From NCBI GenBank assembly GCA_018806915.1, contig JAGKQI010000092.1, positions 224,501-288,500 of the forward strand: 64,000 bases of DNA, read 5' to 3'. Under the pieces are notes generated by a model. That model made no database searches. It had not been told where the DNA came from and saw only the letters and a list, made by a program, of their open reading frames with translations. Both the position numbers and the translations under genes were made by a program. Below, one piece after another: positions 3,343-64,000 of this stretch; position 1 is the stretch's first letter; each line of letters opens with the position of its first letter. Origin of the DNA: Phytophthora colocasiae. Taxonomy: Eukaryota > Oomycota > Peronosporomycetes > Peronosporales > Peronosporaceae.

Positions 3343-3344
3343 CG

Positions 3345-15102: not shown

Positions 15103-15507
15103 GGAAACGAGGTCTGCGCAGCCAAGAAAGAGCGTGGAGCGTGCGCCAGGTTGCGTGTGAGCTGATGCCAAGGACGGAAGACATGGACTAGAGCTACGCT
15201 GGGCTTAACAGCGCCCCGAGTATGTGTGAGGAAGAGGTGAGTGGTACCGTCGAGGAGGTACGGACCCGGGAAGGACAAGGAAGAGGACTCTGGAGGACGT
15301 GAGACGTTGGAAAACAGTGAAGGAAGGGCGTGCTGGTGGAGGTCAGTCGTGAATTTACCTTGGGCACCGCAGCACAAGCCCCAAGTCAAAGAATAATCGC
15401 TTTTTATATTTTTCTTTACTTTTTGTGGTGCGCTTTTATCGCTCTACCGTTCCGTTCTACTTGTAACCCGCAGCGTCTACCGTCCCGCCCAAGACCGACT
15501 CGCGACA
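14931..15507 (+). repeat. 3' LTR of the Gypsy element
   Basis: 577 bp, 575 identical to 2766-3342 by eye comparison. It is followed by CACC, the second copy of the target duplication. The first 172 bp encode the C-terminus of the membrane ORF. Confidence 0.95.
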
Positions 15508-15969
15508 CACCGGCAGCGACTGGTTGTCCCGCGCGGGCTTTGCGAAAGAAATGCCGCACGAGTCGATTGCAGGGCCACATGCAGGTGATCGACGTCATGC
15601 CAGTACACTGTGCTGCATTATCGAGAAAGAATGAAGAAGGAAGCAACAAGAAGTTGCCAAATTAATTCTCTCTTGAGATGTATTAATCCAGTTGGGGACA
15701 ACTTCAATGAAGTCAACTTGACGGCCAGCAGATTGCGGGACAAACTGCGTGATACTAATCATAGTACTCGTATGCTTTAGGGTATGATATGATTCATACA
15801 CCACTGGGATGTCACTGTAGTCACCTGCTGCCCAAAACCACTTCAACCGATTGAACTTTTTCGACTTCACTCTCAAGTTGAGATCTTCCCTGCTGTGTCG
15901 GTACTTTGGTATCTCAAGGCAACTCATACGATCTTCCGACGTGTGGACGTTTACAAACCTCGTCCTCAC
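15508..15969. other. Intergenic flank of the Gypsy insertion
   Basis: A 124-codon minus-strand frame (15595-15969) is open here but has no recognisable motif. I see no other feature. Confidence 0.4.
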
Positions 15970-41818: not shown

Positions 41819-42151
41819 TGCACGCGCAAAATGATCTCTGTGCTCTGTACGGACGCTGGTCAAGACCTTCGCACTGGATATTGCACAAGACAAGCAGATC
41901 AGGCTGATCACAGCAGCGTTCAATTACCACGAGTGGGCCAGTCCATGGGATAACGTGAAGAGACGTTGACACTACGGTGTGAACTGAGCTTCAACCTAGA
42001 CAAGAAAGCTGTACTGTAGCAGACAGATTTCTGCATAACCAACCATACATGGTTGTGTCAAAGAGAACTCCGTCGGATTTCCTTTTGAGAAACGGTGGAG
42101 GCCTGTCCATATCATAGGTACATCTTACAACGTTGAAGGCTTTCAAGTACA
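41819..42151. other. Intergenic to the Helitron block
   Basis: 333 bp. It presumably holds the promoter of the second M96-like gene. The last base, A at 42151 (T on the minus strand), is the host base next to the Helitron CTAG end. Nothing else is seen. Confidence 0.5.
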
Positions 42152-42163
42152 CTAGCGCTCTGG

Positions 42164-42182
42164 GCGCCCGCTACGCGGGCGC
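42164..42182 (-). terminator. Helitron 3' terminal hairpin (copy 1)
   Basis: Arms GCGCCCGC / GCGGGCGC, loop of three bases, 8 nt before CTAG. In Helitrons this hairpin marks the end of rolling-circle transposition; it is not a transcription terminator. The same hairpin is at the end of copy 2 (48598-48616). Confidence 0.85.
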
Positions 42183-42285
42183 GTGGGCATAGTTGGTCCC
42201 AGTAGTTTGGGTAAGGTTCATAAAGACCAGTGAAGTTGAAAATATTACATGAAAGTAAGAGATTTTATTCAAAAGAAATATGAAC

Positions 42286-45200
42286 TTAGAACTCGAAGAT
42301 CTCCCGATAGACAATGTTCTTGGTGTGTACGTTCCCGTCTTCGTCGATCGCTTCCGGGTCCACGGCTATCTTGATCGCCTTCCTTGAAGTTACCCTCGAC
42401 AACGCGACATACAGCTGTCCATGCGCGAACACAGGGGACTCGAGGTAGATCCCTACGTGGTGGATAGACTGTCCTTGGGCCTTGTTGATCGTCATCGCGA
42501 ATGCCGGAACCACAGGAAACTGTTTTCGCCGAAGCTTGAACGGGAATTCCTTGTCGTCGTCTTCATTGTAGAAGATGATGCGCGGAATGAATACTCGCTT
42601 TCCCTTGAACGGCCCAGTCATAATCGTAGCTTCAATGCTTCGCTCACGCAGTGACACCACTCGGAGTCGTGTTCCGTTACACAACCCTGCGTCGCTGTTC
42701 AGGTTGCGAATCATAATGATCGGAGTTCCAACTTTCAATACAATTCGGTGTGGTGGAATTCCAGAGAAATTCAGAGAGTTCAAGAACTCTGGCTCAAACA
42801 TGTTTGGATCCGCTACACCTTCAAGACTGTCAACAGAGAGGTACTCTTTTGTTTCTCCCGATAGACGTTCCGAGACCATGTCGTTGATTCGCCTCACACT
42901 TGTGTTCGTTGGTGCCAAAATGGCTCGTTCAACGAAGTAGTCATCCGGAAGATTGTCGTCACCAACACCAGGATACACTGCATCAATAAGCGCATTGACA
43001 TTGCGCTTCCGCCTGTTCTCATCCGGATCATCAACATCTTGATCAGCAGATGTTTCCATTGGCGGTAGAAGATTGAAGTTTGGAGGTGCTTCCATGTCTT
43101 CGTTCTCTTTGGTTTCTTCGTCATCCCATCGATCTTCCCCTCGTGTGCCTGGTATAATGCACATGTCAAGTGGAAGACATATGTCGTTCTCACTGATATC
43201 GGAGTTCACTGGATATCGACCTTCCCCAATCTGAAGCAAGAAGTCGGAAAACTCTGCCAATTCAGCGGCGCTTGCTGGGTCTGGAGCCGTCTGAACACGC
43301 ATATTCTCCGTCAGACGCACTTGTCGTAAATGGCTCCACAGTGCGGAAGACTTGAAGCAAGCATCCAGCGTTTCTGCCCGAGTAGCATCCTTCAACACAG
43401 GCAGGATCTGTCGATGGTCTCCACTGAAAACCATGACCTTGCCTCCGAATGGCTCCAACTCGTTCTTCATAATATCCCGGAACGACCGATCCACAGCTTC
43501 GAAGCACGCTCGATTCATCATAGGAGCTTCGTCCCAGATGATTAAACTTGCCTTGCGGATCAGTTCTGCCTTCTGGCTCTGCCAAGACAGACTACATGTC
43601 GAAAACTCGGACAGTTTAAGCGGAATCCGAAACGTAGAATGTGCCGTGTGTCCTCCTGTCAATAACGTCGCTGCGATTCCACTGGAAGCCACTGCTATCG
43701 CCACCTTTCTCTGTAGACGGACATGAGCAAGTATCTGCTCCAGCAAGAACGATTTACCAGTTCCACCCGGACCGTCCACAAAAAACAGCTTCTGTCCACC
43801 GACTGGGCGGTTTACAGCTTCGATGACTTGGTCAAAAATGTCTTTCTGGTTCTGGTTCATCTGATCCGCAAGCGTCGCAGTTCTCTCAAGGTCGTCCGGT
43901 TCGTACGCGGCTACCTCCTGTGCGACGATATCCATAGGATCAGCAGACTGGCGTGCGACTTCATCAGAAACGTCGCTGTACGTTTCGAGACCAGGAAGTC
44001 CATACATACGCAGCGTTTTCCCGTTCGAAATCAAATAGTCCGCCAGCCACATCAGGCACTTGTACTCTGCCATGCGCAAGCTGACTTCTTCGTCACGGTC
44101 AATGTTGTTTTGTGCGTCTCTTCCCTGGATGGATCTGAAAAAGTCTTCTGACAAATCCTTCTTAAACCGATCCCACAGAGCAGCGGCATGGTCGGGTAGC
44201 GAGTAAACCAAAATGATTCCCAAAAGTTGTCGCAAAGCGGATGGCATCTTATACGAAACTGCCTCCGCTAAGCATTCTTCCCACTCTTGATCATTCTCCA
44301 AGTACCCAGCAGCCAGTGCTGCGTCGTGAAAGGTATCATAAACCACTCCATTCACTGTGCGAATATCTTCGAATGATTGGGGTGATCGCCGATGGCACAG
44401 TAGAAGTCGAAGGTAAAACCGCTCTGGGTCTTGTGGCGAGACGTGCACCAATCTACCCAGCGAAGCTACGTATCTTCTGTACGGTACCCAATACTTCAAA
44501 CGGTCATCCCACCTGTACTTCACCGGCACATCCTTGTACAACAAATCAGCGGTTCCTTCTGGGTCTTGCATGCACAGGTTGAAAAACGCTGTTAATTTCG
44601 TTCGATCTCCTCGGCGGACCAAATTCTGAAGCTGTGGAGTCGTTGCATGATCTCGATACGTGACCAGACTCATTCCTTCCAGGTGGATAGGAAGAGTCAC
44701 AACGGCATGTGATGAAGCTTGTGTGGGAAATCCGAACAGTCGCATGCAAGCCTCTACCGGAGAAATATAACGACCCAGTAAGTACTGAAGAATCTCGTTC
44801 GCCTGAATTTCCTCTCCTTCAATAGTGATCGTCGTCATATCCGAACCCTTGTAGACATACTTGTAGATGTACTTCACCGCCTTGTTTGTAGCGCATACTT
44901 CCACGTTGATGTGACAGTCATATTTCTGCGATAGGAACGGGTTGTAAGGTACGACCCACTGGTTGATCTTTGCGTTATCCCACACCTTCCCCTTGTGCCT
45001 CAGAATCCCTTCAGGTCGACGACGTCTCTTGTACGTAGGATACTTATCCTCAGCCATTATCGTTTCTTCTGCGAACTGTTTGGGGAATTTCTTGGAGCAT
45101 TTACCGTTCTTCATGCAGGGACAGTTGGGATTTTGTTGCCCACAGGGACCGTGCAACATATTTGAAATGACGGTTTCATAGAGCTCAGGGTGTGTCTCCT

Positions 45201-47310
45201 TGTCTGGTAGCTCGGCTGACGTCAACCGGTCGACATCCTCCGCCGTTGTGGGTTTGTCTTCCGGTCGCATAATCAGCAGGATATGGGCGTGTGGCAGTCC
45301 ACGTTTTTGGTATTCCACCACGTGAACCCGGGCAGCTACAATACCCAGCAGGCCTTCGTCGAGGTCCTTGTTGAGGGCCTTCAGCTTCTGCATGAACACA
45401 CGCGCAACAATGTCCGGTCGATCAGATGCCTTCTCTCCACGTTTAAGATTTTCCTTGATTTCAGACCAGTTCGGGTTACACGTCATGGTGATGAACAGAT
45501 TGGGTGCACCCGTCTCTCGAACTATAGCCATTGCATCCAGGAAACGCTGGTACATGTAGCGCGGCCCTCCCGTAAAGGTTGGAGGTATAATAACCTTACG
45601 GCCGATGTTTTCTGCTTCAGGTTCAGCTGGATCTACCCCTGTGTCCCGTGGCTGTCGTGTTGTAGCCGTTGACCTACGTTGTGCCACTTCCTCATTTGCA
45701 GCCACTCTGTGTACATCGACAGATTCGTTCCGCAGGGCATCGGTAAGACCTTGCAGTGTTTCCAATCTGTACTGAAGTTGGTTCTTTTCTATGAACCGCA
45801 GGCGTTCTTGCTCACACTTGGCCCATTGGTCCACACAATACTGCTGGGTCAGGCGACCTCCTCGGAGAATGAGAGAACGCGCCACATGCAATCGAAGCCG
45901 GAGGTCCTCATCGTGAGGGAGAAACTCATTGAGACGCAGAGCAGGGTTATCACCAGGTCTTGCTTCACCAGCAGCTAATTCCCGTGCAAACTGCTCCACG
46001 GCTGCTTGGTACGCCGGTCCAGCACGATCAATCAACAGTCTGCGAGCGTTTAGAAACTGTCGTGTGTACCCGTTGTGGGCAGTCATCACCTGATCGATTG
46101 TTCCCAGTATGGCCGGGTCCAGTCCATCTGTCATCCCCATACGGCTTGCTACGCGTGCTTCCATATCCGGATCATTAATGTATACTTGCGCAAACATCGG
46201 TCGCCGGTTCGGTGGTGGTAGCAATGCTCCCATGCGATGACAGACAGATCCCTGTACGCGGAAGTTGTATACACCACTTCGAGTTACCCTCTCATCGACG
46301 TTGAGAGAGCGGGTACGTGAGGATCCCATTGAGGTGAACGCGAAGACGTTGTTGTATGCGCGGATCGATTGCTTAAATCTCGGGTTGCCAAACAGTGTGT
46401 TAAGTTCAGCTGGAGCTTCGCGACTGGGAGGAACATCCACCAATCCCTTACGACAACAATTTCCTTCGCTTTCATCCGGAAATTTCCAAGCGCCGCAGTG
46501 CTGACACACTCGCTCGTGCTCCAGGGTATCGTCCGTGTACCGGGTGAAATAATGGCGACCGCCAGGAATGATAGCGGGATCGAACTCTTCGTAGTACGCA
46601 AGCCCTTTTTGGTACTTTCGAGACCGGCGTTGAAATCGGACTTCCTCTCTTCGACGATCAAGATCTTCCTCCGTCATAGCCGCTCGTGTCGCTCGTCGAG
46701 CGGTGGCGTCTTGATCACGTACAGTCTGACGCTCTTCCTCCGTCATGGCATCTCTTGTCGCTCGTCGAACAGCGGTGTCTTCTTCTAATTCACCGGGATT
46801 CATTAGCGCTCGCCGAGCTCTCACATGTTCGGCATCTTGTTGCCGATCTCGATCTATTTGCGACTCCGATCGGTTCGCCCTTGCCCGACGTTTCCTCTCC
46901 GCATCTGCCGCACGAACGCGAGCTAATTGAGACGGTGTCATATTGGCTCGGGAACGCCTGGCTGTTGAACTAAGTCGTGGCTCTTGTTGATTATTTGTTG
47001 CAGGTTCCATACCTACTGCAAACCCAGAGTCGGCAGGTCGAGGAGGTTCTGCAACTGCGATTGAAGCACTTGCCACCGTCGCATTTTGTTCCGACCCAAT
47101 ATCAACAGCCTGCAGCGCGCTGACAACGGCCGGAATGGAGTCTGCATTCTCCTGTTCTCTCGTCTCAGACTGCTGCTTTCTAAACCGGATCAAAGCTGCA
47201 CTGAGGGTCTTCATCCGTCGTCGCTTTGCAGCAGGTTCTTCGTGACCTTCTGGCGCGCGATAAGCTGCTTTGATTTCTTCTTCGCTTCCATACTTGCGCT
47301 TTCTCCCCAT
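42286..47310 (-). CDS. RepHel: HUH rolling-circle initiator fused to PIF1-type helicase
   Basis: 1674 aa from the ATG at 47310 (MGRKRKYGS). The N-terminal 250 residues are basic and Arg-rich with short repeats ('ATRDAMTEEERQTVRDQDA'), followed by a Cys-rich finger 'CQHCGAWKFPDESEGNCC'. The Helitron Rep domain has the HUH motif in RGLPHAHILLI (near residue 675) and the Tyr motif KAVKYIYKYVYKG (near 816), where Tyr attacks DNA. The helicase has Walker A GPGGTGKSF (near 1182), IIWDEAPM (near 1260), FSGDHRQILPV, and late motifs 'MTINKAQGQSIHHVGIYL' and 'LYVALSRVTS'. The whole frame is uninterrupted, so this copy may be active. No RPA-like or endonuclease domain is present. Confidence 0.95.
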   Translation of the reverse strand: MGRKRKYGSEEEIKAAYRAPEGHEEPAAKRRRMKTLSAALIRFRKQQSETREQENADSIPAVVSALQAVDIGSEQNATVASASIAVAEPPRPADSGFAVGMEPATNNQQEPRLSSTARRSRANMTPSQLARVRAADAERKRRARANRSESQIDRDRQQDAEHVRARRALMNPGELEEDTAVRRATRDAMTEEERQTVRDQDATARRATRAAMTEEDLDRRREEVRFQRRSRKYQKGLAYYEEFDPAIIPGGRHYFTRYTDDTLEHERVCQHCGAWKFPDESEGNCCRKGLVDVPPSREAPAELNTLFGNPRFKQSIRAYNNVFAFTSMGSSRTRSLNVDERVTRSGVYNFRVQGSVCHRMGALLPPPNRRPMFAQVYINDPDMEARVASRMGMTDGLDPAILGTIDQVMTAHNGYTRQFLNARRLLIDRAGPAYQAAVEQFARELAAGEARPGDNPALRLNEFLPHDEDLRLRLHVARSLILRGGRLTQQYCVDQWAKCEQERLRFIEKNQLQYRLETLQGLTDALRNESVDVHRVAANEEVAQRRSTATTRQPRDTGVDPAEPEAENIGRKVIIPPTFTGGPRYMYQRFLDAMAIVRETGAPNLFITMTCNPNWSEIKENLKRGEKASDRPDIVARVFMQKLKALNKDLDEGLLGIVAARVHVVEYQKRGLPHAHILLIMRPEDKPTTAEDVDRLTSAELPDKETHPELYETVISNMLHGPCGQQNPNCPCMKNGKCSKKFPKQFAEETIMAEDKYPTYKRRRRPEGILRHKGKVWDNAKINQWVVPYNPFLSQKYDCHINVEVCATNKAVKYIYKYVYKGSDMTTITIEGEEIQANEILQYLLGRYISPVEACMRLFGFPTQASSHAVVTLPIHLEGMSLVTYRDHATTPQLQNLVRRGDRTKLTAFFNLCMQDPEGTADLLYKDVPVKYRWDDRLKYWVPYRRYVASLGRLVHVSPQDPERFYLRLLLCHRRSPQSFEDIRTVNGVVYDTFHDAALAAGYLENDQEWEECLAEAVSYKMPSALRQLLGIILVYSLPDHAAALWDRFKKDLSEDFFRSIQGRDAQNNIDRDEEVSLRMAEYKCLMWLADYLISNGKTLRMYGLPGLETYSDVSDEVARQSADPMDIVAQEVAAYEPDDLERTATLADQMNQNQKDIFDQVIEAVNRPVGGQKLFFVDGPGGTGKSFLLEQILAHVRLQRKVAIAVASSGIAATLLTGGHTAHSTFRIPLKLSEFSTCSLSWQSQKAELIRKASLIIWDEAPMMNRACFEAVDRSFRDIMKNELEPFGGKVMVFSGDHRQILPVLKDATRAETLDACFKSSALWSHLRQVRLTENMRVQTAPDPASAAELAEFSDFLLQIGEGRYPVNSDISENDICLPLDMCIIPGTRGEDRWDDEETKENEDMEAPPNFNLLPPMETSADQDVDDPDENRRKRNVNALIDAVYPGVGDDNLPDDYFVERAILAPTNTSVRRINDMVSERLSGETKEYLSVDSLEGVADPNMFEPEFLNSLNFSGIPPHRIVLKVGTPIIMIRNLNSDAGLCNGTRLRVVSLRERSIEATIMTGPFKGKRVFIPRIIFYNEDDDKEFPFKLRRKQFPVVPAFAMTINKAQGQSIHHVGIYLESPVFAHGQLYVALSRVTSRKAIKIAVDPEAIDEDGNVHTKNIVYREIFEF

Positions 47311-48585
47311 CGTTCCTACAAACACTTAACACAAACCTACGTTAGTCTACACTCTTACTTTCTTCATTGTCTACTTCTTCACGCTTCTTTTTGTGCTTGA
47401 AAAAAACGTGCGGTAAGCGGTTCCAGATGCCGCGGCAAAAAGATTTCCTTTTTCCCGAAGTAGAAGGTCTCAGTTCGCCGCTAAACAAAAGGTAAGCCAT
47501 AAGCCCTCAAGTCACTGTCCCCAATGACTCGGCAGGTCCGCGACCATGCCACGTGGCTGTCCGCACGCGCCCTGTCGCGGACTCGGAAGCACGGGACTGG
47601 GGTCACCCCCAAAACCAACGTGCCGGTCCCATACACGACCACTCTCCGAGGATAAGGCAGGCGGCCCGGCTAAGCCGGCTCTTCTCGCCACATGGATCTG
47701 CCTCAGCGCCTCGGCGGGGTATGAGACTTCCCATGCTGCTGGCGGGCAAACATGGGCGCCTCAGGGTCGCGGCTCCGGAGAGCAAAGGTGCGACAGGACT
47801 AAACCTTAGTACGTGCAACGGGGTCCAGCTGCAACCTCCTTATCGCCCTCGTGTCCTGGAATTGTGCCTCCGGGGGTAGAAATCCCCGCCTCGGAACGAC
47901 ACGTTTTGCCAGAGAGGAACGAAACTGTGACTCTACTGTAACGTTTGCTTCGAGAGGGTCGTCCTGGCAACTCTGGGCAGGGAATGGGCTCCTCTGGGGG
48001 CTGGCTAGGCCGCATCAGTATGGCAAATCTTAGGATGCCCATCCTCCGTGCAGTGGTGGATATCTCACCCAATGCACGGCTCCGGTTTCCCTCTCTAACG
48101 CGCACAGTAAGTCTTGGTTGCCCCAGAAGGTACCAGTTCTCCCAACAGGCGGAACTCCCGAAGCCGTAAAGACTTTATTAATACTTTAATATTCTATGTG
48201 GCTACACCTACCTACCTTCTCTGCGGCGCTCGCTTCCTCTAAGCTGCTGTAGAGCCCGCGCCGTTCGCGCTCCAAGTGTCGTCGCCGGCGCCGATGTTGA
48301 AATGAGCGAAAATGTGAATCGAAACAATTCGATTAGGTTCGAAAAATTCGATTAAGTTCGAGAACGTTCCAGATAAGTCCGAATAATTACGTGGACAGTG
48401 CTAGTTTTGTAATTTCTGGAAAGAAGTTTCCAGTCAATAAGGTAGGTGCAGCTGCTTTGATGGGAGGAAAATGTATAGAAATGTATCGAGACGCGCACCA
48501 AAAAAGATGCCACTCGAAAGGCTCAGGCCGGTGGAAAGGGGCGTGACCGACGGACAGACACGTTATGATCTTACTGTGAAGTTGA
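47311..48585 (-). other. Helitron copy 1 non-coding 5' region
   Basis: 1.27 kb between the RepHel start and the 5' TC end. It must contain the promoter. A G/C-rich middle part (about 47520-48130) has no convincing frame and could be captured foreign sequence. An A/T-rich part near the end carries two copies of ATTCGATTARGTTCGA (48326-48362). The same region in copy 2 shows small rearrangements. Confidence 0.5.
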
Positions 48586-51500
48586 CTAGCGCTCTGGGCG
48601 CCCGCTACGCGGGCGCGTGGGCATAGTTGGTCCCAGTAGTTTGGGTAAGGTTCATAAAGACCAGTGAAGTTGAAAATATTACATGAAAGTAAGAGATTTT
48701 ATTCAAAAGAAATATGAACTTAGAACTCGAAGATCTCCCGATAGACAATGTTCTTGGTGTGTACGTTCCCGTCTTCGTCGATCGCTTCCGGGTCCACGGC
48801 TATCTTGATCGCCTTCCTTGAAGTTACCCTCGACAACGCGACATACAGCTGTCCATGCGCGAACACAGGGGACTCGAGGTAGATCCCTACGTGGTGGATA
48901 GACTGTCCTTGGGCCTTGTTGATCGTCATCGCGAATGCCGGAACCACAGGAAACTGTTTTCGCCGAAGCTTGAACGGGAATTCCTTGTCGTCGTCTTCAT
49001 TGTAGAAGATGATGCGCGGAATGAATACTCGCTTTCCCTTGAACGGCCCAGTCATAATCGTAGCTTCAATGCTTCGCTCACGCAGTGACACCACTCGGAG
49101 TCGTGTTCCGTTACACAACCCCTGCGTCGCTGTTCAGGTTGCGAATCATAATGATCGGAGTTCCAACTTTCAATACAATTCGGTGTGGTGGAATTCCAGA
49201 GAAATTCAGAGAGTTCAAGAACTCTGGCTCAAACATGTTTGGATCCGCTACACCTTCAAGACTGTCAACAGAGAGGTACTCTTTTGTTTCTCCCGATAGA
49301 CGTTCCGAGACCATGTCGTTGATTCGCCTCACACTTGTGTTCGTTGGTGCCAAAATGGCTCGTTCAACGAAGTAGTCATCCGGAAGATTGTCGTCACCAA
49401 CACCAGGATACACTGCATCAATAAGCGCATTGACATTGCGCTTCCGCCTGTTCTCATCCGGATCATCAACATCTTGATCAGCAGATGTTTCCATTGGCGG
49501 TAGAAGATTGAAGTTTGGAGGTGCTTCCATGTCTTCGTTCTCTTTGGTTTCTTCGTCATCCCATCGATCTTCCCCTCGTGTGCCTGGTATAATGCACATG
49601 TCAAGTGGAAGACATATGTCGCTCTCACTGATATCGGAGTTCACTGGATATCGACCTTCCCCAATCTGGAAGCAAGAAGTCGGAAAACTCTGCCAATTCA
49701 GCGGCGCTTGCTGGGTCTGGAGCCGTCTGAACACGCATATTCTCCGTCAGACGCACTTGTCGTAAATGGCTCCACAGTGCGGAAGACTTGAAGCAAGCAT
49801 CCAGCGTTTCTGCCCGAGTAGCATCCTTCAACACAGGCAGGATCTGTCGATGGTCTCCACTGAAAACCATGACCTTGCCTCCGAATGGCTCCAACTCGTT
49901 CTTCATAATATCCCGGAACGACCGATCCACAGCTTCGAAGCACGCTCGATTCATCATAGGAGCTTCGTCCCAGATGATTAAACTTGCCTTGCGGATCAGT
50001 TCTGCCTTCTGGCTCTGCCAAGACAGACTACATGTCGAAAACTCGGACAGTTTAAGCGGAATCCGAAACGTAGAATGTGCCGTGTGTCCTCCTGTCAATA
50101 ACGTCGCTGCGATTCCACTGGAAGCCACTGCTATCGCCACCTTTCTCTGTAGACGGACATGAGCAAGTATCTGCTCCAGCAAGAACGATTTACCAGTTCC
50201 ACCCGGACCGTCCACAAAAAACAGCTTCTGTCCACCGACTGGGCGGTTTACAGCTTCGATGACTTGGTCAAAAATGTCTTTCTGGTTCTGGTTCATCTGA
50301 TCCGCAAGCGTCGCAGTTCTCTCAAGGTCGTCCGGTTCGTACGCGGCTACCTCCTGTGCGACGATATCCATAGGATCAGCAGACTGGCGTGCGACTTCAT
50401 CAGAAACGTCGCTGTACGTTTCGAGACCAGGAAGTCCATACATACGCAGCGTTTTCCCGTTCGAAATCAAATAGTCCGCCAGCCACATCAGGCACTTGTA
50501 CTCTGCCATGCGCAAGCTGACTTCTTCGTCACGGTCAATGTTGTTTTGTGCGTCTCTTCCCTGGATGGATCTGAAAAAGTCTTCTGACAAATCCTTCTTA
50601 AACCGATCCCACAGAGCAGCGGCATGGTCGGGTAGCGAGTAAACCAAAATGATTCCCAAAAGTTGTCGCAAAGCGGATGGCATCTTATACGAAACTGCCT
50701 CCGCTAAGCATTCTTCCCACTCTTGATCATTCTCCAAGTACCCAGCAGCCAGTGCTGCGTCGTGAAAGGTATCATAAACCACTCCATTCACTGTGCGAAT
50801 ATCTTCGAATGATTGGGGTGATCGCCGATGGCACAGTAGAAGTCGAAGGTAAAACCGCTCTGGGTCTTGTGGCGAGACGTGCACCAATCTACCCAGCGAA
50901 GCTACGTATCTTCTGTACGGTACCCAATACTTCAAACGGTCATCCCACCTGTACTTCACCGGCACATCCTTGTACAACAAATCAGCGGTTCCTTCTGGGT
51001 CTTGCATGCACAGGTTGAAAAACGCTGTTAATTTCGTTCGATCTCCTCGGCGGACCAAATTCTGAAGCTGTGGAGTCGTTGCATGATCTCGATACGTGAC
51101 CAGACTCATTCCTTCCAGGTGGATAGGAAGAGTCACAACGGCATGTGATGAAGCTTGTGTGGGAAATCGAACAGTCGCATGCAAGCCTCTACCGGAGAAA
51201 TATAACGACCCAGTAAGTACTGAAGAATCTCGTTCGCCTGAATTTCCTCTCCTTCAATAGTGATCGTCGTCATATCCGAACCCTTGTAGACATACTTGTA
51301 GATGTACTTCACCGCCTTGTTTGTAGCGCATACTTCCACGTTGATGTGACAGTCATATTTCTGCGATAGGAACGGGTTGTAAGGTACGACCCACTGGTTG
51401 ATCTTTGCGTTATCCCACACCTTCCCCTTGTGCCTCAGAATCCCTTCAGGTCGACGACGTCTCTTGTACGTAGGATACTTATCCTCAGCCATTATCGTTT

Positions 51501-54500
51501 CTTCTGCGAACTGTTTGGGGAATTTCTTGGAGCATTTACCGTTCTTCATGCAGGGACAGTTGGGATTTTGTTGCCCACAGGGACCGTGCAACATATTTGA
51601 AATGACGGTTTCATAGAGCTCAGGGTGTGTCTCCTTGTCTGGTAGCTCGGCTGACGTCAACCGGTCGACATCCTCCGCCGTTGTGGGTTTGTCTTCCGGT
51701 CGCATAATCAGCAGGATATGGGCGTGTGGCAGTCCACGTTTTTGGTATTCCACCACGTGAACCCGGGCAGCTACAATACCCAGCAGGCCTTCGTCGAGGT
51801 CCTTGTTGAGGGCCTTCAGCTTCTGCATGAACACACGCGCAACAATGTCCGGTCGATCAGATGCCTTCTCTCCACGTTTAAGATTTTCCTTGATTTCAGA
51901 CCAGTTCGGGTTACACGTCATGGTGATGAACAGATTGGGTGCACCCGTCTCTCGAACTATAGCCATTGCATCCAGGAAACGCTGGTACATGTAGCGCGGC
52001 CCTCCCGTAAAGGTTGGAGGTATAATAACCTTACGGCCGATGTTTTCTGCTTCAGGTTCAGCTGGATCTACCCCTGTGTCCCGTGGCTGTCGTGTTGTAG
52101 CCGTTGACCTACGTTGTGCCACTTCCTCATTTGCAGCCACTCTGTGTACATCGACAGATTCGTTCCGCAGGGCATCGGTAAGACCTTGCAGTGTTTCCAA
52201 TCTGTACTGAAGTTGGTTCTTTTCTATGAACCGCAGGCGTTCTTGCTCACACTTGGCCCATTGGTCCACACAATACTGCTGGGTCAGGCGACCTCCTCGG
52301 AGAATGAGAGAACGCGCCACATGCAATCGAAGCCGGAGGTCCTCATCGTGAGGGAGAAACTCATTGAGACGCAGAGCAGGGTTATCACCAGGTCTTGCTT
52401 CACCAGCAGCTAATTCCCGTGCAAACTGCTCCACGGCTGCTTGGTACGCCGGTCCAGCACGATCAATCAACAGTCTGCGAGCGTTTAGAAACTGTCGTGT
52501 GTACCCGTTGTGGGCAGTCATCACCTGATCGATTGTTCCCAGTATGGCCGGGTCCAGTCCATCTGTCATCCCCATACGGCTTGCTACGCGTGCTTCCATA
52601 TCCGGATCATTAATGTATACTTGCGCAAACATCGGTCGCCGGTTCGGTGGTGGTAGCAATGCTCCCATGCGATGACAGACAGATCCCTGTACGCGGAAGT
52701 TGTATACACCACTTCGAGTTACCCTCTCATCGACGTTGAGAGAGCGGGTACGTGAGGATCCCATTGAGGTGAACGCGAAGACGTTGTTGTATGCGCGGAT
52801 CGATTGCTTAAATCTCGGGTTGCCAAACAGTGTGTTAAGTTCAGCTGGAGCTTCGCGACTGGGAGGAACATCCACCAATCCCTTACGACAACAATTTCCT
52901 TCGCTTTCATCCGGAAATTTCCAAGCGCCGCAGTGCTGACACACTCGCTCGTGCTCCAGGGTATCGTCCGTGTACCGGGTGAAATAATGGCGACCGCCAG
53001 GAATGATAGCGGGATCGAACTCTTCGTAGTACGCAAGCCCTTTTTGGTACTTTCGAGACCGGCGTTGAAATCGGACTTCCTCTCTTCGACGATCAAGATC
53101 TTCCTCCGTCATAGCCGCTCGTGTCGCTCGTCGAGCGGTGGCGTCTTGATCACGTACAGTCTGACGCTCTTCCTCCGTCATGGCATCTCTTGTCGCTCGT
53201 CGAACAGCGGTGTCTTCTTCTAATTCACCGGGATTCATTAGCGCTCGCCGAGCTCTCACATGTTCGGCATCTTGTTGCCGATCTCGATCTATTTGCGACT
53301 CCGATCGGTTCGCCCTTGCCCGACGTTTCCTCTCCGCATCTGCCGCACGAACGCGAGCTAATTGAGACGGTGTCATATTGGCTCGGGAACGCCTGGCTGT
53401 TGAACTAAGTCGTGGCTCTTGTTGATTATTTGTTGCAGGTTCCATACCTACTGCAAACCCAGAGTCGGCAGGTCGAGGAGGTTCTGCAACTGCGATTGAA
53501 GCACTTGCCACCGTCGCATTTTGTTCCGACCCAATATCAACAGCCTGCAGCGCGCTGACAACGGCCGGAATGGAGTCTGCATTCTCCTGTTCTCTCGTCT
53601 CAGACTGCTGCTTTCTAAACCGAATCAAAGCTGCACTGAGGGTCTTCATCCGTCGTCGCTTTGCAGCAGGTTCTTCGTGACCTTCTGGCGCGCGATAAGC
53701 TGCTTTGATTTCTTCTTCGCTTCCATACTTGCGCTTTCTCCCCATCGTTCCTACAAACACTTAACACAAACCTACGTTAGTCTACACTCTTACTTTCTTC
53801 ATTGTCTACTTCTTCACGCTTCTTTTTGTGCTTGAAAAAAACGTGCGGTAAGCGGTTCCAGATGCCGCGGCAAAAAGATTTCCTTTTTCCCGAAGTAGAA
53901 GGTCTCAGTTCGCCGCTAAACAAAAGGTAAGCCATAAGCCCTCAAGTCACTGTCCCCAATGACTCGGCAGGTCCGCGACCATGCCACGTGGCTGTCCGCA
54001 CGCGCCCTGTCGCGGACTCGAAGCTTACGGGACTGGGGTCACCCCCAAAACCAACGTGCCGGTCCCATACACGACCACTCTCCGAGGATAAGGCAGGCGG
54101 CCCGGCTAAGCCGGCTCTTCTCGCCACATGGATCTGCCTCAGCGCCTCGGCGGGGTATGAGACTTCCCATGCTGCTGGCGGGCAAACATGGGCGCCTCAG
54201 GGTCGCGGCTCCGGAGAGCAAAGGTGCGACAGGACTAAACCTTAGTACGTGCAACGGGGTCCAGCTGCAACCTCCTTATCGCCCTCGTGTCCTGGAATTG
54301 TGCCTCCGGGGGTAGAAATCCCCGCCTCGGAACGACACGTTTTGCCAGAGAGGAACGAAACTGTGACTCTACTGTAACGTTTGCTTCGAGAGGGTCGTCC
54401 TGGCAACTCTGGGCAGGGAATGGGCTCCTCTGGGGGGCTGGCTAGGCCGCATCAGTATGGCCGTCTTAGGATGCCCATCCCTCCGTGCAGTGGTGGATAT

Positions 54501-55022
54501 CTCACCCAATGCACGGCTCCGGTTTCCCTCTCTAACGCGCACAGTAAGTCTTGGTTGCCCCAGAAGGTACCAGTTCTCCCAACAGGCGGAACTCCCGAAG
54601 CCGTAAAGACTTTATTAATACTTTAATATTCTATGTGGCTACACCTACCTACCTTCTCTGCGGCGCTCGCTTCCTCTAAGCTGCTGTAGAGCCCGCGCCG
54701 TTCGCGCTCCAAGTGTCGTCGCCGGCGCCGATGTTGAAATGAGCGAAAATGTGAATCGAAACAATTCGATTAGGTTCGAAAAATTCGATTAAGTTCGAGA
54801 ACGTTCCAGATAAGTCCGAATAATTACGTGGACAGTGCTAGTTTTGTAATTTCTGGAAAGAAGTTTCCAGTCAATAAGGTAGGTGCAGCTGCTTTGATGG
54901 GAGGAAAATGTATAGAAATGTATCGAGACGCGCACCAAAAAAGATGCCACTCGAAAGGCTCAGGCCGGTGGAAAGGGGCGTGACCGACGGACAGACACGT
55001 TATGATCTTACTGTGAAGTTGA
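48586..55022 (-). mobile_element. Autonomous-type Helitron, copy 2 (6437 bp)
   Basis: Near-identical to copy 1 with the same 3' hairpin and CTAG (48586-48589) and the same 5' end TCAACTTC (at 55022). It lies head-to-tail with copy 1. Differences seen: three one-base indels and a few substitutions in the gene, and a few short changes in the 5' region (near 54020-54030 and 54430-54480). Confidence 0.95.
48720..53745 (-). pseudogene. RepHel of copy 2, three one-base frameshifts
   Basis: Same protein as copy 1 but broken: one C missing near 51167 (just after the Rep Tyr region), one G extra near 49668 and one C extra in a C-run at 49119-49122. ORF pieces are 53745-51133, 51184-49625, 49734-49111 and 49118-48720. 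The Rep half is intact, the helicase half displaced. At least one substitution (N to S after the 'SDISE' stretch) also separates the copies. Two of the indels are in short homopolymers, so a sequencing or assembly error is possible. Confidence 0.9.
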
Positions 55023-58000
55023 CTAGCCGAGTGCCGCCCGCTTTTGCGGGCGGTGTGTATGTGTTTGGGTGAAGCCCGAGGTGCTCACTGTTCCAGTTCG
55101 CCCCACTACTCACCATCGGCGCCACACCTTCGGCGCGCGCCAGTTGGCCGAGGTGCTACCTTCGCTTCGCTCGGTAGGATGTATTTTAGCCAATCACCAG
55201 TGGGGGCTGCGAGCTCGCGAGCTCGCAGCTACTATTTCGTACTTATCGAAGCAATTTTAGCCGAGTGCCGCCCGCTTTTGCGGGCGGTTTGTATGTGTTT
55301 GGTCGAAACCCGTGGGGCTCACTGTTCCAGTTCGCCCCACTACTCACCACCGGCGCCACACCTTCGGCGCGCGCCAGTTGGCCGAGGTGCTACCTTCGCT
55401 TCGCTCGGTAGGATGTATTTTAGCCAATCACCGGTCTGTAAAGCGGGGCAGCTCAGCATTTTAATCGTACTTAGCTTACTTTTGTCCAATTAAATATTTT
55501 GTGGCCGGGTGTGCGGACCAATCAGAGGCCATGGAGAGGGTTATCATTAGTGGGCTATATTTGTAATTTTGGCATTCCTGAGAGCAGTCTAGAACATAGG
55601 GATAGGCTACACCATGGGAAAATACAGTATAGAATACGTACATGTACAAAATGGAGAGACAGGTAGCTACGCAGGTTTATGCGCTACGACGTTGAACAGA
55701 CACACAGACACGGCACTAGCCTAGAGGGCAGAGACTAGCCGAGTGCCGCCCGCTTTTGCGGGCGGTTTGTATGTGTTTGGTTGAAACCCGTGGGGCTCAC
55801 TGTTCCAGTTCGCCCCACTACTCACCATCGGCGCCACACCTTCGGCGCGCGCCAGTTGACCGAGGTGCTACCTTCGCTTCGCTCGGTAGGATGTATTTTA
55901 GCCGAGTGCCGCCCGCTTTTGCGGGCGGTTTATATGTGTTTGGTTGAAACCCGTGGGGCTCACTGTTCCAGTTCGCCCCACTACTCACCATCGGCGCCAC
56001 ACCTTCGGCGCGCGCCAGTTGACCGAGGTGCTACCTTCGCTTCGCTCGGTAGGATGTATTTTAGCCAATCACCGGTCTGTAAAGCGGGGCAGCTCAGCAT
56101 TTTAATCGTACTTTGCTTAATTTTGTCCAATCAAATATTTTGTGGCCGGGTGTGCGGACCAATCAGAGGCCATTGAGAGGGTTATCATTAGTGGGCTATA
56201 TTTGTAATTTTGGCATTCCTGAGAGCAGTCTAGAACATAGGGATAGGCTACACCATGGGAAAATACAGTATAGAATACGTACATGTACAAAATGGAGAGA
56301 CAGGTTGCTACGCAGGTTTATGCGCTACGACGTTGAACACACACACAACGGACACACAGACACACAGACACGGCACTAGCCTAGAGGGCAGAGACTAGCC
56401 GAGTGCCGCCCGCTTTTGCGGGCGGTGTGTATGTGTTTGGTTGAAACCCGTGGGGCTCACTGTTCCAGTTCGCCCCACTACTCACCACCAGCGCCACACC
56501 TTCGGCGCGCGCCAGTTGGCCGAGGTGCTACCTTCGCTTCGCTCGGTAGGATGTATTTTAGCCGAGTGCCGCCCGCTTTTGCGGGCGGTTTGTATGTGTT
56601 TGGGTGAAGCCCGTGGTGCTCACTGTTCCAGTTCGCTATACTACTCACCACCGGCGCCACACCTTCGGCGCGCGCCAGTTGGCCGAGGTGCTACCTTCGC
56701 TTCGCTCGGTAGGATGTATTTTAGCCAATCACCGGTCTGTAAAGCGGGGCAGCTCAGCATTTTAATCGTACTTTGCTTAATTTTGTCCAATCAAATATTT
56801 TGTGGCCGGGTGTGCGGACCAATCAGAGGCCATTGAGAGGGTTATCATTAGTGGGCTATATTTGTAATTTTGTCATTCCTGAGAGCAGTCTAGAACATAG
56901 GGATAGGCTACACCATGGGAAAATACAGTATAGAATACGTACATGTACAAAATGGAGAGACAGGTAGCTACGCAGGTTTATGCGCTAAGACGTTGAACAC
57001 ACACACAACGGACACACAGACGCCGCACTAGCCTAGAGAGTAGATTGAGACTAGTTGAGTACTGAGTGCCAGCCCGCTTTTGCGGGCGGTTTGTATGTGT
57101 TTGGTTGAAACCCGTGGGGCTCACTGTTCCAGTTCGCCCCACTACTCACCATCGGCGCCACACCTTCGGCGCGCGCCAGTTGGCCGAGGTGCTACCTTCG
57201 CTTCGCTCGGTAGGATGTATTTTAGCCAATCACCGGTCTGTAAAGCGGGGCAGCTCAGCATTTTAATCGTACTTTGCTTAAGTTTGTCCAATTAAATATT
57301 TTGTGGCCGTGTGCGGACCAATGTGAGAGGGGTTTCCAGTTCGCCCCACTACTCACCATCGGCGCCACACCTTCGGCGCGCGCCATTGGCATTCGAGGTG
57401 CTGCATAGCGATAGGCTACACCATGGGAAAATACAGTATAGAATACGTACATGTGCAGAAAATGGAGAGACAGGTAGCTACGCAGGTTATGCGCTACGAC
57501 GTTGAACACACACACAGACACACAGACACGGGACTAGCCTACTGTGTTGAGACTGTTGAGTGCCGCCCGCTTTTGCGGGCGGTTTGTATGTGTTTGGTTG
57601 AAACCCGTGGTGCTCACTGTTCCAGTTCGCCCCACTACTCACCATCGGCGCCACACCTTCGGCGCGCGCCAGTTGGCCGAGGTGCTACCTTCGCTTCGCT
57701 CGGTAGGATGTATTTTAGCCAATCACCAGTGGGGGCTACGAGCTCGCGAGCTAGCAGCTACTATTTCGTACTAATCGAAGCAATTTTAGCCGAGTGCCGC
57801 CCGCTTTTGCGGGCGGTTTGTATGTGTTTGGTTGAAACCCGTGGGGCTCACTGTTCCAGTTCGCCCCACTACTCACCATCGGCGCCACACCTTCGGCGCG
57901 CGCCAGTTGGCCGAGGTGCTACCTTCGCTTCGCTCGGTAGGATGCATTTTAGCCAATCACCGGTCTGTAAAGCGGGGCAGCTCAGCATTTTAATCGTACT

Positions 58001-58288
58001 TAGCTTACTTTTGTCCAATTAAATATTTTGTGGCCGGGTGTGCGGACCAATCAGAGGCCATTGAGAGGGTTATCATTAGTGGGCTATATTTGTAATTTTG
58101 GCATTCCTGAGAGCAGTCTAGAACATAGGGATAGGCTACACCATGGGACAATACAGTATAGAATACGTACATGTACAAAATGGAGAGACAGGTAGCTACG
58201 CAGGTTTATGCGCTACGACGTTGAACACACACAACAGACACACGGACACACGGACACACAGACGCCGCACTAGCCTAGAGAGTAGAGA
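55023..58288 (-). mobile_element. Tandem array of five non-autonomous Helitron units
   Basis: Head-to-tail units, each (minus strand) opening with TC and closing with a hairpin CCGCCCGC-AAAA-GCGGGCGG then CACTCGGCTAG. Units: 55023-55734, 55735-56394, 56395-57050, 57051-57552 (rearranged, end altered to CTAGTTGAGTACTGAG) and 57553-58288 (CTAG mutated to CTGT). Four of the five contain a second internal copy of the hairpin end, with TTAG in place of CTAG (55257, 55898, 56558, 57786). Unit bodies share 'CCAATCACCGGTCTGTAAAG' and 'GTTATCATTAGTGGGCTATA'. None encodes a Rep; the short open frames (for example MRAVCMCL...) repeat with the DNA and look accidental. Confidence 0.88.
55206..55229. repeat. 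Perfect 24-bp palindrome
   Basis: Half-site GCTGCGAGCTCG, followed by its exact complement. A decayed version is at 57726-57749. It lies between the two hairpin ends of the first and fifth short units only, in the 70-bp segment that those units have and the 163-bp spaced units lack. Confidence 0.85.
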
Positions 58289-58493
58289 CTAGCCGAGTGC
58301 CGCCCGCTTTGCGGGCGGTGTGTATGTGTTAGGTCCCAACCCGTAGTGCTCGCTGTTCCAGCTCGCCCTACTACTCTGTAGCCCCTGCCTTCGCCTCGCT
58401 CGGAGGGGACAAAAACATACACAGTGTTTCATATGCACAGTGAACATGTATTTGTTGTTATAAAAAATGCAGTGATCTCCTTCTTCCTCTTGC

Positions 58494-61400
58494 TTACATC
58501 TCGAATATCTGTCGGTAGACAATATTCTGTGTGTACACTCCATCGGCGTCCACCTGGTCAGGATACTCGATCATCACCTTGAGTCTCGACCGCGCTGTCA
58601 CTCTCGATAACGCCACGTACAGCTGTCCGTGTGAGAAGCAAGGAGTCGCCAAGTATAGTCCGAGATTTTGTACCGTTTGTCCTTGGGCCTTGTTGATTGT
58701 CATCGCAAACGCTGGTTGCACTGGGAACTGCTTACGACGTAGACGGAAGGGGAACTCACGCGTGTCCCCGTCACTGAGGAACACAATCCGCGGAATGAAC
58801 ACATGCTGGCCGTGGCGTTCCCCTGTCATGATGGTCGCATGGATCACGTGGAGGTTTCAGCTCCACAACACGGAGGCGCGTTCCGTTGCACAGTCCAAGA
58901 TTTGGATTCAGGTTGCGCATCATCATGATCGGCGCACCCTTCTTCAAAGTTAGTTTGTGCGGCGGGATTCCGTTCATATTCACTGAATGCAGGAGTTCAG
59001 GCTCAAAGTAATCAGCGTCACCGTCATTATCCACTGAATCGTTGGACAAATACTCCTGGGCGTCACCTTCCAGCTTCTGAGAAACAGCTTCGTTGATACG
59101 CTGCACGATCATGTTCGTAGTCGTCAATATCGTTCGATTGGCAAAGTACTCATCCGTGGCGATCTCAGGGTTATTAATGTCTGCATACATCTCGTCAATG
59201 ATGCGTCGCATGCCTCTGGGAGTGGTGCCAGGCCGAACCTCTTCATCTTCTTCTTCCGGCTCTTCCTCCGGTTCGATCTCAATCAACATGTCGTTCGGGA
59301 TCTTGATGAAGTCTGGTCCAAGTCCAGCATTCACTTGGTGCCTTCCTTCGCCCACTTGAAGGAGAAACTCAGAGAATGCTGCCAGTTCTTCCGCTGTCGT
59401 TTCATTCGCAGCCGACCTCACACGCATGTTCTCCGTAAGATGAACTTGTTCGAATTTGCTCCACAACTCCGAAGACTTTAGACACGCGTCGATGGTATCG
59501 GCAGGCGTTCCCTGCAGTACCACTGGTAGAATTTGTCTGAAATCTCCTGAAAGGACGACCACTTTCCCGCCAAATGGTTCATCGATGTCCAAGATATCCC
59601 GTAGCGAACGGTCCACAGCCTCAAAAGCGTGACGATGGGCCATCGGAGCTTCGTCCCAGATAATTAAACTGGCCATCTTGATAAGTTCCTTCAGGGCGGA
59701 GTTCTTATTGATCGCACACGTAGACTCCGCATTCAGCTTTAGCGGGATTCGAAAGGTAGAATGTGCAGTGCGACCACCCATTAGTAGAAGTGCGGCAATT
59801 CCACTCGAAGCTACCGCAATGGCAATTTTCCCAGACAAACGAACTTTTGCCAGGATGTGCTTGAGCAAGGTTGATTTTCCAGTACCACCAGGTCCATCCA
59901 GAAAAAATAACTTGTTGCCTTCTGAAGATCCATCGACAGCCGCCATGACTTTCGCGTAGATAGCTTGTTGACCTTCATTAAGTCCATCCTCATGCTCCAC
60001 AATTTCTTGAAGCGTGTGATAGTCATACGCCATGGTCTCGCGGTCAATCAAACTGTTGTTGGTCTGGAGTGCGTCTCGAAGAAGCAGCTCAGGAAATCGG
60101 CAAGTTGTGGAAGGTCAAACTCATGTACCGCTTTCCCACTCGCTTGAAGCAACTCGTTCAGACTCTTGAGCGTGTTAAACATCACCACGTCGTCCCTCGC
60201 TTGGCCTTCCATGGCGCGGAATCGACGGTGGAAATCCTCAGACAATGCTCCGTAGTAATTATCCCATAGCTGACGCACCTGCCCAACCTGAGAGTATACT
60301 AACAGCGTAGCAAATAGCTGACGCAGTTGATACGCCATCTGGAACGTCGCGGCTTCCTCCATACAGGCTGCCCACTCCTCATCATTCTCGAGATATCCTA
60401 GACGTAACGCGGCATCCTTATACGATCCACATACGACGTTTTCCACAGTCCGGATATCCTGGAAAGAAGTAGGTCCTTTGCGATGGCATAGCAAGACGCG
60501 TAAGTAGAACCTCTCCTCATCTCGCGGAGACACGTGAATCATTCGTCCTAGTGCAGCTTGATACTTTTTGCGGCGGACCCATATCTTGTGTTTGTCCCAT
60601 CTAAAGTACTTCGGCACATCCTGATACACAATTGTCTTCGCTACCTGGTCTTCGGGCGCTCTACTCGCACATATGTCGAAGAAGGCAGTAAGCTTCGTGC
60701 GCTCACTACGATCCATAACGCGTTCCGGATCTTCGGTCTCGCGGAATACCACCATCTGCTCACCTTCGAGGTGTACCGTGAGCTGGAAAACCGCATGGGA
60801 CTTCCCTTGCACTACGTGTCCGAGGAGACGCATACACGCCTCAATGGGAGAGATGTACCTTGCGCTTAAGTATCGGATGATCTCGTTGGGTTCCCGTCTG
60901 TCGATATTACCTTCGTCTTGCACCGTCTCCACTGTAATCACAGCTCTGTCGGATCCCTTGTACACGTACTTGTAGAGATACTTCACCACTGACAGTGCTG
61001 TGCAGATTTCAATGTTGATGTGGCAGTTGTACTTGTATGAAAAGTATGGGTTGTATGGCACCACCCACTGATTCAGCGTAGCATTGTCGTACCGTCTTCC
61101 ATTGAATGTAAAAAATCCTTCCGATCGTCGTCGGCGTCTGTACTGCGAAACCGTCTTCGCTCACCCGCGTTGTCTCCACGAACGGTTTCAGGTAGCCCTT
61201 TGTACACTTGCCATCCTTCATACAGACACACGATGGATTCGCCGTGCCACAGGGCCCGTGCATCATATTCGTCATGACCGTTTCATAAAGGCCGGGGTTG
61301 GTGTCAGGATCCGGTACTTCCGCCGATACAATCTTGTCAATAATTTGCCTTGTGCGTGGCTTGTCCTCGTCCGCCAAGATGACAATGATGTGCGCATGAG

Positions 61401-63882
61401 GAAGTCCACGCTTTTGAAACTCCACCACGTAAATCCGAGCGGAAACCCGCCCAAGCACACCCTCGTCTAAGTCTTTTAAATGAGCAGCCAGCTTTTTGCT
61501 GCCATACTCTCGCGACGATGTCTGGGCGGTCTTGGGCGCTATGGTTAGGATCGCGAATCTGCTCTTGGATCTCTTCCCACTTTGGATTGCAAGTCATCGT
61601 GTCGAAGATATCTGGCTTGCCGTACTCCCTAACGATTGCCATCGAGTCTTGTTACGATTGGTACATCTGACGCGGGCTCCCTGAGTGAGAAGACGGTAAG
61701 ATGATCTTCTTCCCAACCTGATTGAGGAAGTGCCTGTTTCGGGCTCGGTCGGGGTGAGCCAGCTCTCCAGTGTCACGATCATATTCCGCCAGGAGTCCTT
61801 CGCCATCGCCCAGGATAGTCCTAGCCTCTTCCATAGCTTCGCTCAGGTACGCATCTCGCAGTCCATTGTACTGGTAAGCACGGATCTCCTTCTGGTGAGT
61901 TGCTATCCAGCGAAGTTCTTCTTGCTCGCATTTGGCTCTCTGGTCCACACAATACTGTTGGAAAAAGGCGCCCCCCTTTATGTAGAGCTGATCGGTCGTC
62001 GTCCTTTTGGAAGAGTCGATACGCGACGTGCTCACGTAGAGCCATAGCGCGTTTGTTCCTGCGCACCACATCACCTTCGTACGTATCCGTATACGTCCAC
62101 CCCAGTTCTCCATACGGAAGAAGTAGCGGGTACTGAAGGGGTCGTAGTTGGCGTTTGTTTCCCAGAGACGCATGAGATTTCTGTCTTTTGTATATACCAA
62201 GAGATCGCGAGGCTGTGCGAGGTTGCCGTCTTCAATCATAGTGACGGCCACTTCAGAAACCGTCGGCAGATTTTCCGTTCGAGGTCTCGAAGGATTGTTT
62301 TTCAGACGGAACACCAAGTCGATTGGCTGCTGCATATCGCTTTGACGCACCCTTTCGCCAAACGTGAGAAACTGCTGAGCGAACGGGTTGTACCTTTGCA
62401 TCACCCGCTCGATGTCTAACAAAGCCACAGGGTCCAGGTCTGCGAAAATCCCCATACGTCTCTCAGCTCGGCGCTCCATGTCCGGATCGACGATATAGAT
62501 CTGCGCAAACTTGGGCTGAGTCCTTTGGCCAGTTCGACGATCAATGTATGGCAACAACGAACCCATGTAGTGGCCCATAGCACCTTGAATTCGGTAGGAG
62601 TATACGCCACGTTCACCCGCGACGCTGTTGTCCTGGTTGACGTTCTGAAACCTACCCGTGTTCGGGTTTGAAGCACCGATAGACGTAAAGGCAAACGCCT
62701 GGTTGTACGCCCGTATCTGCTTTCGAAAATTGGGGTCTCCGTAAAGCTGGAGAAGTTCGTCTGGAGCCGGGGCCAGAGGTGGTAGTCTGACTTTCCCCTC
62801 GATACAGCAGGCAGACTCGCTTTCACCAGGCCACTTCCACGCGTTACAGTGACCGCACACCGTAGTGGGAGGAAGCCGGTGGCGTTTGGTGTCTTCATCA
62901 ACATCTGGACCTGTGACCATCGACGGACGGAAATCTTCATGGTTTGCAAGTGCTTTTCGATGGCGAGTGATACGTCGACGTTCTCGAACACGCTCGCGCT
63001 CCTCTTCGCGCTCTTCCTCCGTTTGTAACGCCCTTCTGATGGCGTGACGCTCTCGGTCCTGTTCTCGCTCTGCCGCACGCTGCTCCTCGTCCTGTTGCTG
63101 TCTAGCATACGATTGCCGCTCTCTGTTGCTCTCCCGCTCAACATCACGCTCCTCTGGGGTCTGGTGCTCCCTTGAACTTGCGCGACGTTGCCTGTCAAGT
63201 TCCCGCTCTGCCGCACGCTGCTCCTCGTCCTGTTGCTGTCTAGCATACGATTGCCGCTCTCTGTTGCTCTCCCGCTCAACATCACGCTCCTCTGGGGTCT
63301 GGTGCTCCCTTGAACTTGCGCGACGTTGCCTGTCAAGTTCCCGCTCTGCCGCACGCTGCTCCTCGTCCTGTTGCTGTCTAGCATACGATTGCCGCTCTCT
63401 GTTGCTCTCCCGCTCAACATCACGCTCCTCTGGGGTCTGGTGCTCCCTTGAACTTGCGCGACGTTGCCTGTCAAGTTCACGCTCTGCCGCACGCTCCTCA
63501 TCCGTCTGACGGGCACGTCGGGATGCCTGAACCACAGCATTTGCTTCGCGCTCCTCCTTGCGTTCATTCTCGTCTTGCTGGGAACGACGAATGGCCCTTG
63601 TTTCTGTGTGTTTCGTTGTCGTTCGATGTCTCGGTCTTCTAGGGAAAGTTGGGAGCGTATTTGCGCTTGGCGCTCACTGGCAATATCAAGACCAATCTGA
63701 CCCTGAAGGCCTCGTCGATTTAGCTGTTCAAGTCGGTTTCTTTCGCGATCTGCTACCACTTGTTCAGCACTTCGTTGAGCTCTCCGTTGGCGCTGGCGTT
63801 CGGCATTCCGTTGCCGCGTACGTTCGCGTTGGGAAGAGCTCATGTTTGCCCGCCGCAGCCTGGCTCTCTCTGCGTCACTCAT
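58494..63882 (-). pseudogene. RepHel of the third Helitron, multiply broken
   Basis: Pieces in order: 63882-~63540, 63535-61652, 61642-61337, 61458-61009, 61064-60048, 60051-58771, 58847-58494. Between them are several frameshifts and one in-frame TAA (61652-61654, before 'QDSMAIVREYGK'). Motifs remain: Cys finger 'CGHCNAWKWPGESESACC', HUH RGLPHAHIIVI, Tyr region VVKYLYKYVYKG, Walker A GPGGTGKST, IIWDEAPM, LSGDFRQILPV, 'MTINKAQGQTVQNLGLYL', 'YVALSRVTA'. The N-terminus may extend past 63882. It is clearly homologous to, but distinct from, the RepHel of copies 1 and 2. A Rep with this damage cannot act, so another copy must supply it. Confidence 0.88.
63071..63484 (-). repeat. 138-bp coding minisatellite, three copies
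   Basis: Exact or near-exact repeats with period 138 bp (marks at 63071, 63209, 63347), with a partial fourth at 63485. Each encodes 46 residues of Arg/Glu/Gln-rich charged helix (for example 'EHQTPEERDVERESNRERQ') in the N-terminal tail of the third RepHel. The period is a multiple of three, so the frame is kept. Confidence 0.9.
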
Positions 63883-64000
63883 CCTAAGCGCCGCAGCACT
63901 GGATGGATTCGTAGTGGGGGCATGGTTGTTCCTGTCGGAGGAACCACCGGTGCATCTACAGGGGCTACAATGGGGTCGCCTGAAACCGAAACGTTGTTTA

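Follow-up and report, generated by a model that had tools for sequence, protein, structure and literature searches.

Polar head-to-tail arrays of two Helitron families in Phytophthora colocasiae and their possible growth at the 5′ edge of resident elements

A 64,000-nucleotide stretch of Phytophthora colocasiae DNA (GenBank assembly GCA_018806915.1, contig JAGKQI010000092.1, positions 224,501 to 288,500; hereafter the window) contains most of a head-to-tail array of Helitrons. In window coordinates the array extends from 42152 to 80281, a span of 38,130 bp with 11 units and 10 joints, seven of which lie in the window; the remainder of the array is found beyond position 64,000. All units are on the minus strand, and the joints, which appear as GA/CTAG on the plus strand, read CTAG/TC in element orientation (the slash marks the joint). 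The array as a whole is flanked by a single host A upstream and a single host T downstream and thus occupies one host A/T site. Its parts are as follows.

42151..42152, array 3′ edge: CTAG, then host T, in the minus-strand reading
42152..48585, minus strand, family A Helitron, 6434 bp; 5′ end TCAACTTCACAG; 3′ hairpin, then GCGCTAG
48586..55022, minus strand, second family A Helitron, 6437 bp; Rep and helicase regions in two open reading frames (875 and 519 aa)
55023..55734, minus strand, family B mini-unit, 712 bp; lies immediately 5′ of family A
55735..56394, minus strand, family B mini-unit, 660 bp; 3′ end tandemly duplicated (163 bp)
56395..57050, minus strand, family B mini-unit, 656 bp; 5′ variant TCTCAATCTACTCTC; 163-bp tandem duplication of the 3′ end
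57051..57552, minus strand, family B mini-unit, 502 bp; 5′ variant TCTCAACACAG; 3′ end ...CTCAACTAG
57553..58288, minus strand, family B mini-unit, 736 bp; 3′ end ...CTCAACAG, not ...CTCGGCTAG
58289..65408 (58289..64000 in the window), minus strand, family B Helitron of autonomous size, 7120 bp
65409-72514, minus strand, beyond the window, 7.1-kb unit continuing the array
72515-79633, minus strand, beyond the window, 7.1-kb unit continuing the array
79634-80281, minus strand, beyond the window, 648-bp mini-unit, the 5′-most of the array, with host A before its TC
80281/80282, array 5′ edge, outside the window: host A, then TCTCTACCC

A preliminary description of the window had placed seven joints between these units, and all are present, including the one at 57552/57553 where CTGT replaces CTAG on the plus strand (ACAG in element orientation). 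It was right that these are Helitrons in a single orientation, joined seamlessly and drawn from two families. The units it listed, two 6.4-kb copies, five short units and a third autonomous element, are those given above, the third running past the window to 65408. The mixed joint of the window, between A and B, is 55022/55023. At 57050 and 57552 the ends are not clean and a short irregular sequence is present. These irregularities, at 57045-57060 and 57545-57560, contain CTCAA and look as if the joints themselves had been nicked and then repaired; the 3′ ends at two joints on another contig (C44, 906298 and 909139) are likewise altered.

Family A elements start with TCAACTTCACAG or TCTACCTCCCAG and end with GCGCTAG, and some A relatives elsewhere in the genome begin with TTTCCC. 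Family B elements mostly start with TCTCT[AG]C[CT]CTCTAGG and end with GGCTAG. Rep and PIF1-like helicase regions are common to the two families, with matches to Helitron_like_N, PIF1 and Pif1_2B, which is the Rep (HUH) plus helicase combination of canonical Helitrons. The A protein carries the motifs HAH and YIYKY, which we take to be the HUH and tyrosine motifs. Over the aligned stretches the A and B proteins are 37–64% identical. In the first A unit the transposase is encoded by a single 1679-aa frame (42286-47325) with Rep and PIF1-like helicase domains; the protein closest to it comes from Phytophthora infestans and is helitron helicase-like (80% identity, 71% of the query). The frame is split in the second A unit and in the B unit at 58289-65408, where the Rep and helicase regions are scattered over several frames. 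Within the coding region of this B unit there is a 138-bp tandem repeat of 3.2 copies (63061-63499), with matches in both of the following units.

The ends are also those of canonical Helitrons. All window units but one have a 5′ TC and a 3′ CTAG just downstream of a GC-rich hairpin, the exception being the unit that ends in ACAG. Judged from the flanks of occupied sites, insertion is between host A and T with no target duplication. The mini-units carry B ends, and most contain an additional internal copy of the 3′ end terminating in CTAA, as in the unit at 55023..55734; these copies apparently arose as tandem duplications at a short GGCTA match. Elsewhere in the window, 578-bp direct repeats at 2766-3343 and 14931-15508 are 99.65% identical and enclose a weak gag-like match and a reverse transcriptase/integrase reading frame. 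This is probably a recent Gypsy-type LTR element of ~12.7 kb.

The 92.5-Mb genome (105 contigs, designated here by C numbers, the window being G000:C104:224501-288500) was searched for similar joints, and about 200 were found. With up to two mismatches there are 172 joints of CTAG with a B 5′ end, against none for a reversed-pattern control, and 18 of CTAG with an A 5′ end. The TTTCCC start of the A relatives gave 16 matches at up to three mismatches, with CTAG in 12 and CCAG in two more. Had some 230 insertions (a round figure) fallen on random AT sites, at an AT frequency extrapolated from the window, ~0.006 head-to-tail abutments would be expected, against the ~200 matches; the joints are not due to chance. 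The base preceding an exact B 5′ end (n=190) is G in 142 cases, A in 47 and C in one, so that about three quarters of these ends adjoin another element. Among the 100 G-context ends listed from the 142, 97 are exact CTAG joints, and in two of the remaining three, when read, the upstream B 3′ end is altered. The single C-context end lies between B ends of one cluster on C46. On the other side, 29 exact B 3′ ends stand before T followed by a base other than C, and none in the genome stands before a base other than T. The canonical A/T rule is thus tightly kept by host insertions in this genome.

Several loci met in this search are more complex. On C44, positions 892112-944445 form a ~52-kb cluster of B joints in which spacings of ~711, 660 and 943 bp recur; some gaps are larger, and higher-order repeats may be present. 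The stretch read was 901601-911000. The 5′ region of an A relative lies inverted against an A 3′ end at L023 (G000:C22:524136; CTAG/TTTTAGGTGGCGGGAAA); the structure resembles an insertion in opposite orientation within a resident 5′ end. Four A 5′ ends preceded by A are found at G000:C58:1803248-1814238, 355–367 bp inside units that start at joints; the outer starts are another A-type 5′ end, possibly the acquisition of a new outer 5′ end.

Where the two families meet, the arrangement is polar. Reading 5′ to 3′ along the elements, B is followed by A at eight places (C6, C31, C54, C57, C81, C82, C100 and C104) and A by B at one (C5; two-sided sign test, p 0.039). Five of the eight B-then-A loci were read completely, C82 and C100 in part, and C81 is unread. 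This count takes in A units starting with TCAACTT or TCTACC (up to two mismatches) and, downstream of A 3′ ends, the common B 5′ end (up to three) but no variant B starts such as TCTCAACACAG; the TTTCCC joints, some of them (C53) of unassigned upstream family, stand apart from it. Edge-to-edge reading of five mixed arrays (C104, C6, C31, C54 and C57) gave one order throughout: host A, then B units, then one or more A units, which are 3′-most, then host T; the host flanks differ from array to array. This sorting has p ~1e-5 against a random order of units, and p 0.03 (one-sided) when each array is treated as one block order. At the counterexample on C5 a B element, 97.9–98.7% identical to a B copy, directly follows a stretch that is 94.4% identical to family A and in which no 5′ end was recognised on reading the locus. 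The order there looks like attachment at a 3′ edge.

The relatedness of the units was assessed in 46 B units shorter than 1500 bp from eight arrays, longer B units being left out. For all six mini-units of the present array, five in the window and one beyond it, the nearest sampled relative lies in another array, on differences of few substitutions in alignments of unequal length. Local amplification is common all the same, since for 25 of the 46 units the nearest relative is a unit of the same array, against a shuffled mean of 5.6. Near-identical runs of neighbours, absent from the mini-units of the array described here, are found on C54 (0.000 apart), on C6 (0.002) and among the ~711-bp units on C44 (0.001–0.004), and the two 6.4-kb A units of the window are 99.8% identical to each other. 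The 7.1-kb B units of the array share 99.0–99.2% identity, measured against the first of them, and a partly read copy on C82, at 99.2%, is just as close. Judging from these similarities, independent arrivals and local multiplication both seem to occur. Copying of a single B-A composite around the genome is unsupported, for in the same sample of eight arrays the B units adjoining A are not each other's nearest relatives.

Three comparisons of age and order gave no significant result. An age gradient from 5′ to 3′ along the arrays has a positive sign and is not significant (p 0.15–0.35). The order of the B 5′ subtypes ACCC, GCCC and ACTC was striking in the first five arrays; the stratigraphy was lost when exact ends on contigs up to C80 were taken (99 joints, 36 edges; p 0.19–0.47). 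At four mixed loci the pairwise divergence of A units is 3.2–5.9%, that of adjacent B units 2.2–4.7%, and the mean over all B pairs 2.6–3.4%. The A units at these loci are not clearly more diverged than the B units, and the figures do not decide whether A is the older.

The preliminary description argued that ordinary AT insertion could not produce these joints. This is incorrect, as the host A and the first base of a resident's TC together form an A/T site, and a newcomer entering there leaves CTAG/TC behind it. A joint of this kind cannot, therefore, by itself separate insertion from read-through. The order of events and the enzymology we infer as follows. A resident Helitron would offer the transposase a preferred A/T target at its 5′ edge, where host A is followed by TC. 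At its 5′ end the newcomer would be linked through TC to the host A, and at its 3′ end through CTAG to the T that opens the resident, giving A/TC..X..CTAG/TC..Y, in which the joint is seamless and an A/TC edge is restored upstream. Since this edge is restored, the stack could grow again on its 5′ side. The chemistry of the CTAG/TC joint would be that of Helitron circle closure, here acting in trans. Near-identical neighbours would come from a second process, which may be read-through, a multimeric circle or unequal exchange.

The mixed joints are most simply accounted for by insertion at the resident 5′ edge, which is favoured here and needs only the canonical A/T rule. This account is supported by the B-before-A polarity, by the relatives of the mini-units in other arrays and the equally close C82 copy of the 7.1-kb units, by the lack of support for a copied B-A composite, and by the cuts and circles known from the Helraiser element. 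The order at C5, the non-significant tests of age, subtype and A versus B, and the frequency of local amplification weaken it, as do the small number of polar places and the fact that only the common B 5′ end was sought after A. We give stepwise, independent insertion at the resident 5′ edge, together with a second process for the near-identical runs, a probability of about 0.58. A broader form is more tentative, and we hold it a little less probable than its opposite: that the transposase prefers as its target the 5′ end of whatever related Helitron is resident, other families included, so that such loci would be self-renewing landing pads and most copies of a family would lie in polar stacks whose order is their arrival history.

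Experiments with Helraiser are relevant to the enzymology. Its transposase makes an exact top-strand cut at the 5′ end, between flank and TC, and exact cuts on both strands at the 3′ end; 46 insertions out of 1,751 fell at sites other than AT (PMC4778049). With cuts at both ends, the 3′ edge could serve as a substrate too. Helraiser circles have an exact CTAG-TC junction and an A/T target, and re-inserted circles are active, as in the scheme above; the difference is that their junction closes the two ends of one and the same element (PMC4778049; PMC5876387).

The preliminary description had instead traced the array to rolling-circle read-through or to a multimeric circle that inserted, so that one event, or a few, would have produced all of it. 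Circles joined head to tail have been reported (PMC4778049; PMC13286980), and this origin fits the near-identical runs, namely the 6.4-kb A pair and those on C54, C6 and C44. It fails at the mixed joints and at the mini-units: read-through alone cannot join two families whose proteins differ so widely, all six mini-units are closest to units elsewhere, and units of different length and 5′ variant are intermixed. As an explanation of the whole array it is unlikely.

Stepwise insertion could also take place at the other edge, a newcomer entering between the G of the resident's CTAG and the host T, with growth on the 3′ side. The joint would be identical. The C5 locus agrees with this, as does one maize data set (PMC2267711); the cutting of the Helraiser 3′ end (PMC4778049) is compatible with it, and the 0.2% divergence of the 3′-most A pair would suit a late arrival. 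Growth at the 3′ edge would, however, break the A/T rule at every joint, although host insertions obey it (47 A and one C before the 5′ end, no base other than T after the 3′ end), and it would require that A elements used B 3′ ends eight times while B elements ignored those of A but for one case. We consider it quite improbable.

Joining in trans of the ends of different excised Helitrons, with the mixed multimers inserted as blocks, would use the chemistry of circle closure and would account for mixed seamless joints within one A/T site. It predicts a random order of A and B, against the 8:1 ratio seen and the sorting in five of five edge-to-edge mixed arrays, and is very improbable. For this array, which was read from assembled contigs, misjoining of dispersed repeats can be given little credence: the recurrence of ~200 joints in varied unit combinations at many loci of a 105-contig assembly, with five edge-to-edge arrays each in its own host A/T site, argues against a general artefact.

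Tandem Helitrons as such have been known for some time, and head-to-tail copies are cited for bat, Drosophila, rice, maize and plant centromeres. The closest parallel is a maize pair (Du et al., 2008; PMC2267711). As in the array described here, two unlike Helitrons meet there at a CTAG/TC joint without a host A. Entry between the host A and the resident T is given as one of two possible orders, and maize lines with only the 5′ member exist, which fits the opposite order or excision. The maize case differs in being one pair, with its order left open and no genome-wide polarity given in the portion of the paper available. Maize Helitrons also insert near or inside other Helitrons, creating multiple 3′ ends (PMC3288121). 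This preference for resident Helitrons and the internal 3′ ends with damaged CTAG resemble the situation in the mini-units; seamless polar arrays are not described in the accessible part of that source. Plant centromere arrays are described as tandem rolling-circle products, whereas the present arrays mix units of two families and several subtypes in a polar order. In Metarhizium acridum there is one case, a triple Helitron of three copies, and most fungal Helitrons in that study are of the non-canonical Helitron2 type (PMC5148889). In literature largely outside subscription journals, no report was found of polar mixed Helitron arrays, nor of a genome with most copies of a family in such joints and a fixed two-family polarity. 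The scale, mixing and polarity seen in P. colocasiae are unusual.

Tandem arrangements of Helitrons have been taken to speak for rolling-circle transposition (PMC5876387). If many joints are insertions at a 5′ edge, tandem structure alone would be no evidence for read-through. With ~200 joints, and eight plus one mixed joints in one genome, the order of insertion could be tested across isolates. The pattern points to frequent landing of newcomers exactly at a resident's front edge, which would bear on the old question of how Helitron stacks form. If this is true, the choice of target by Helitrons would be partly self-directed, and the order of units in an array could be read as a time series.
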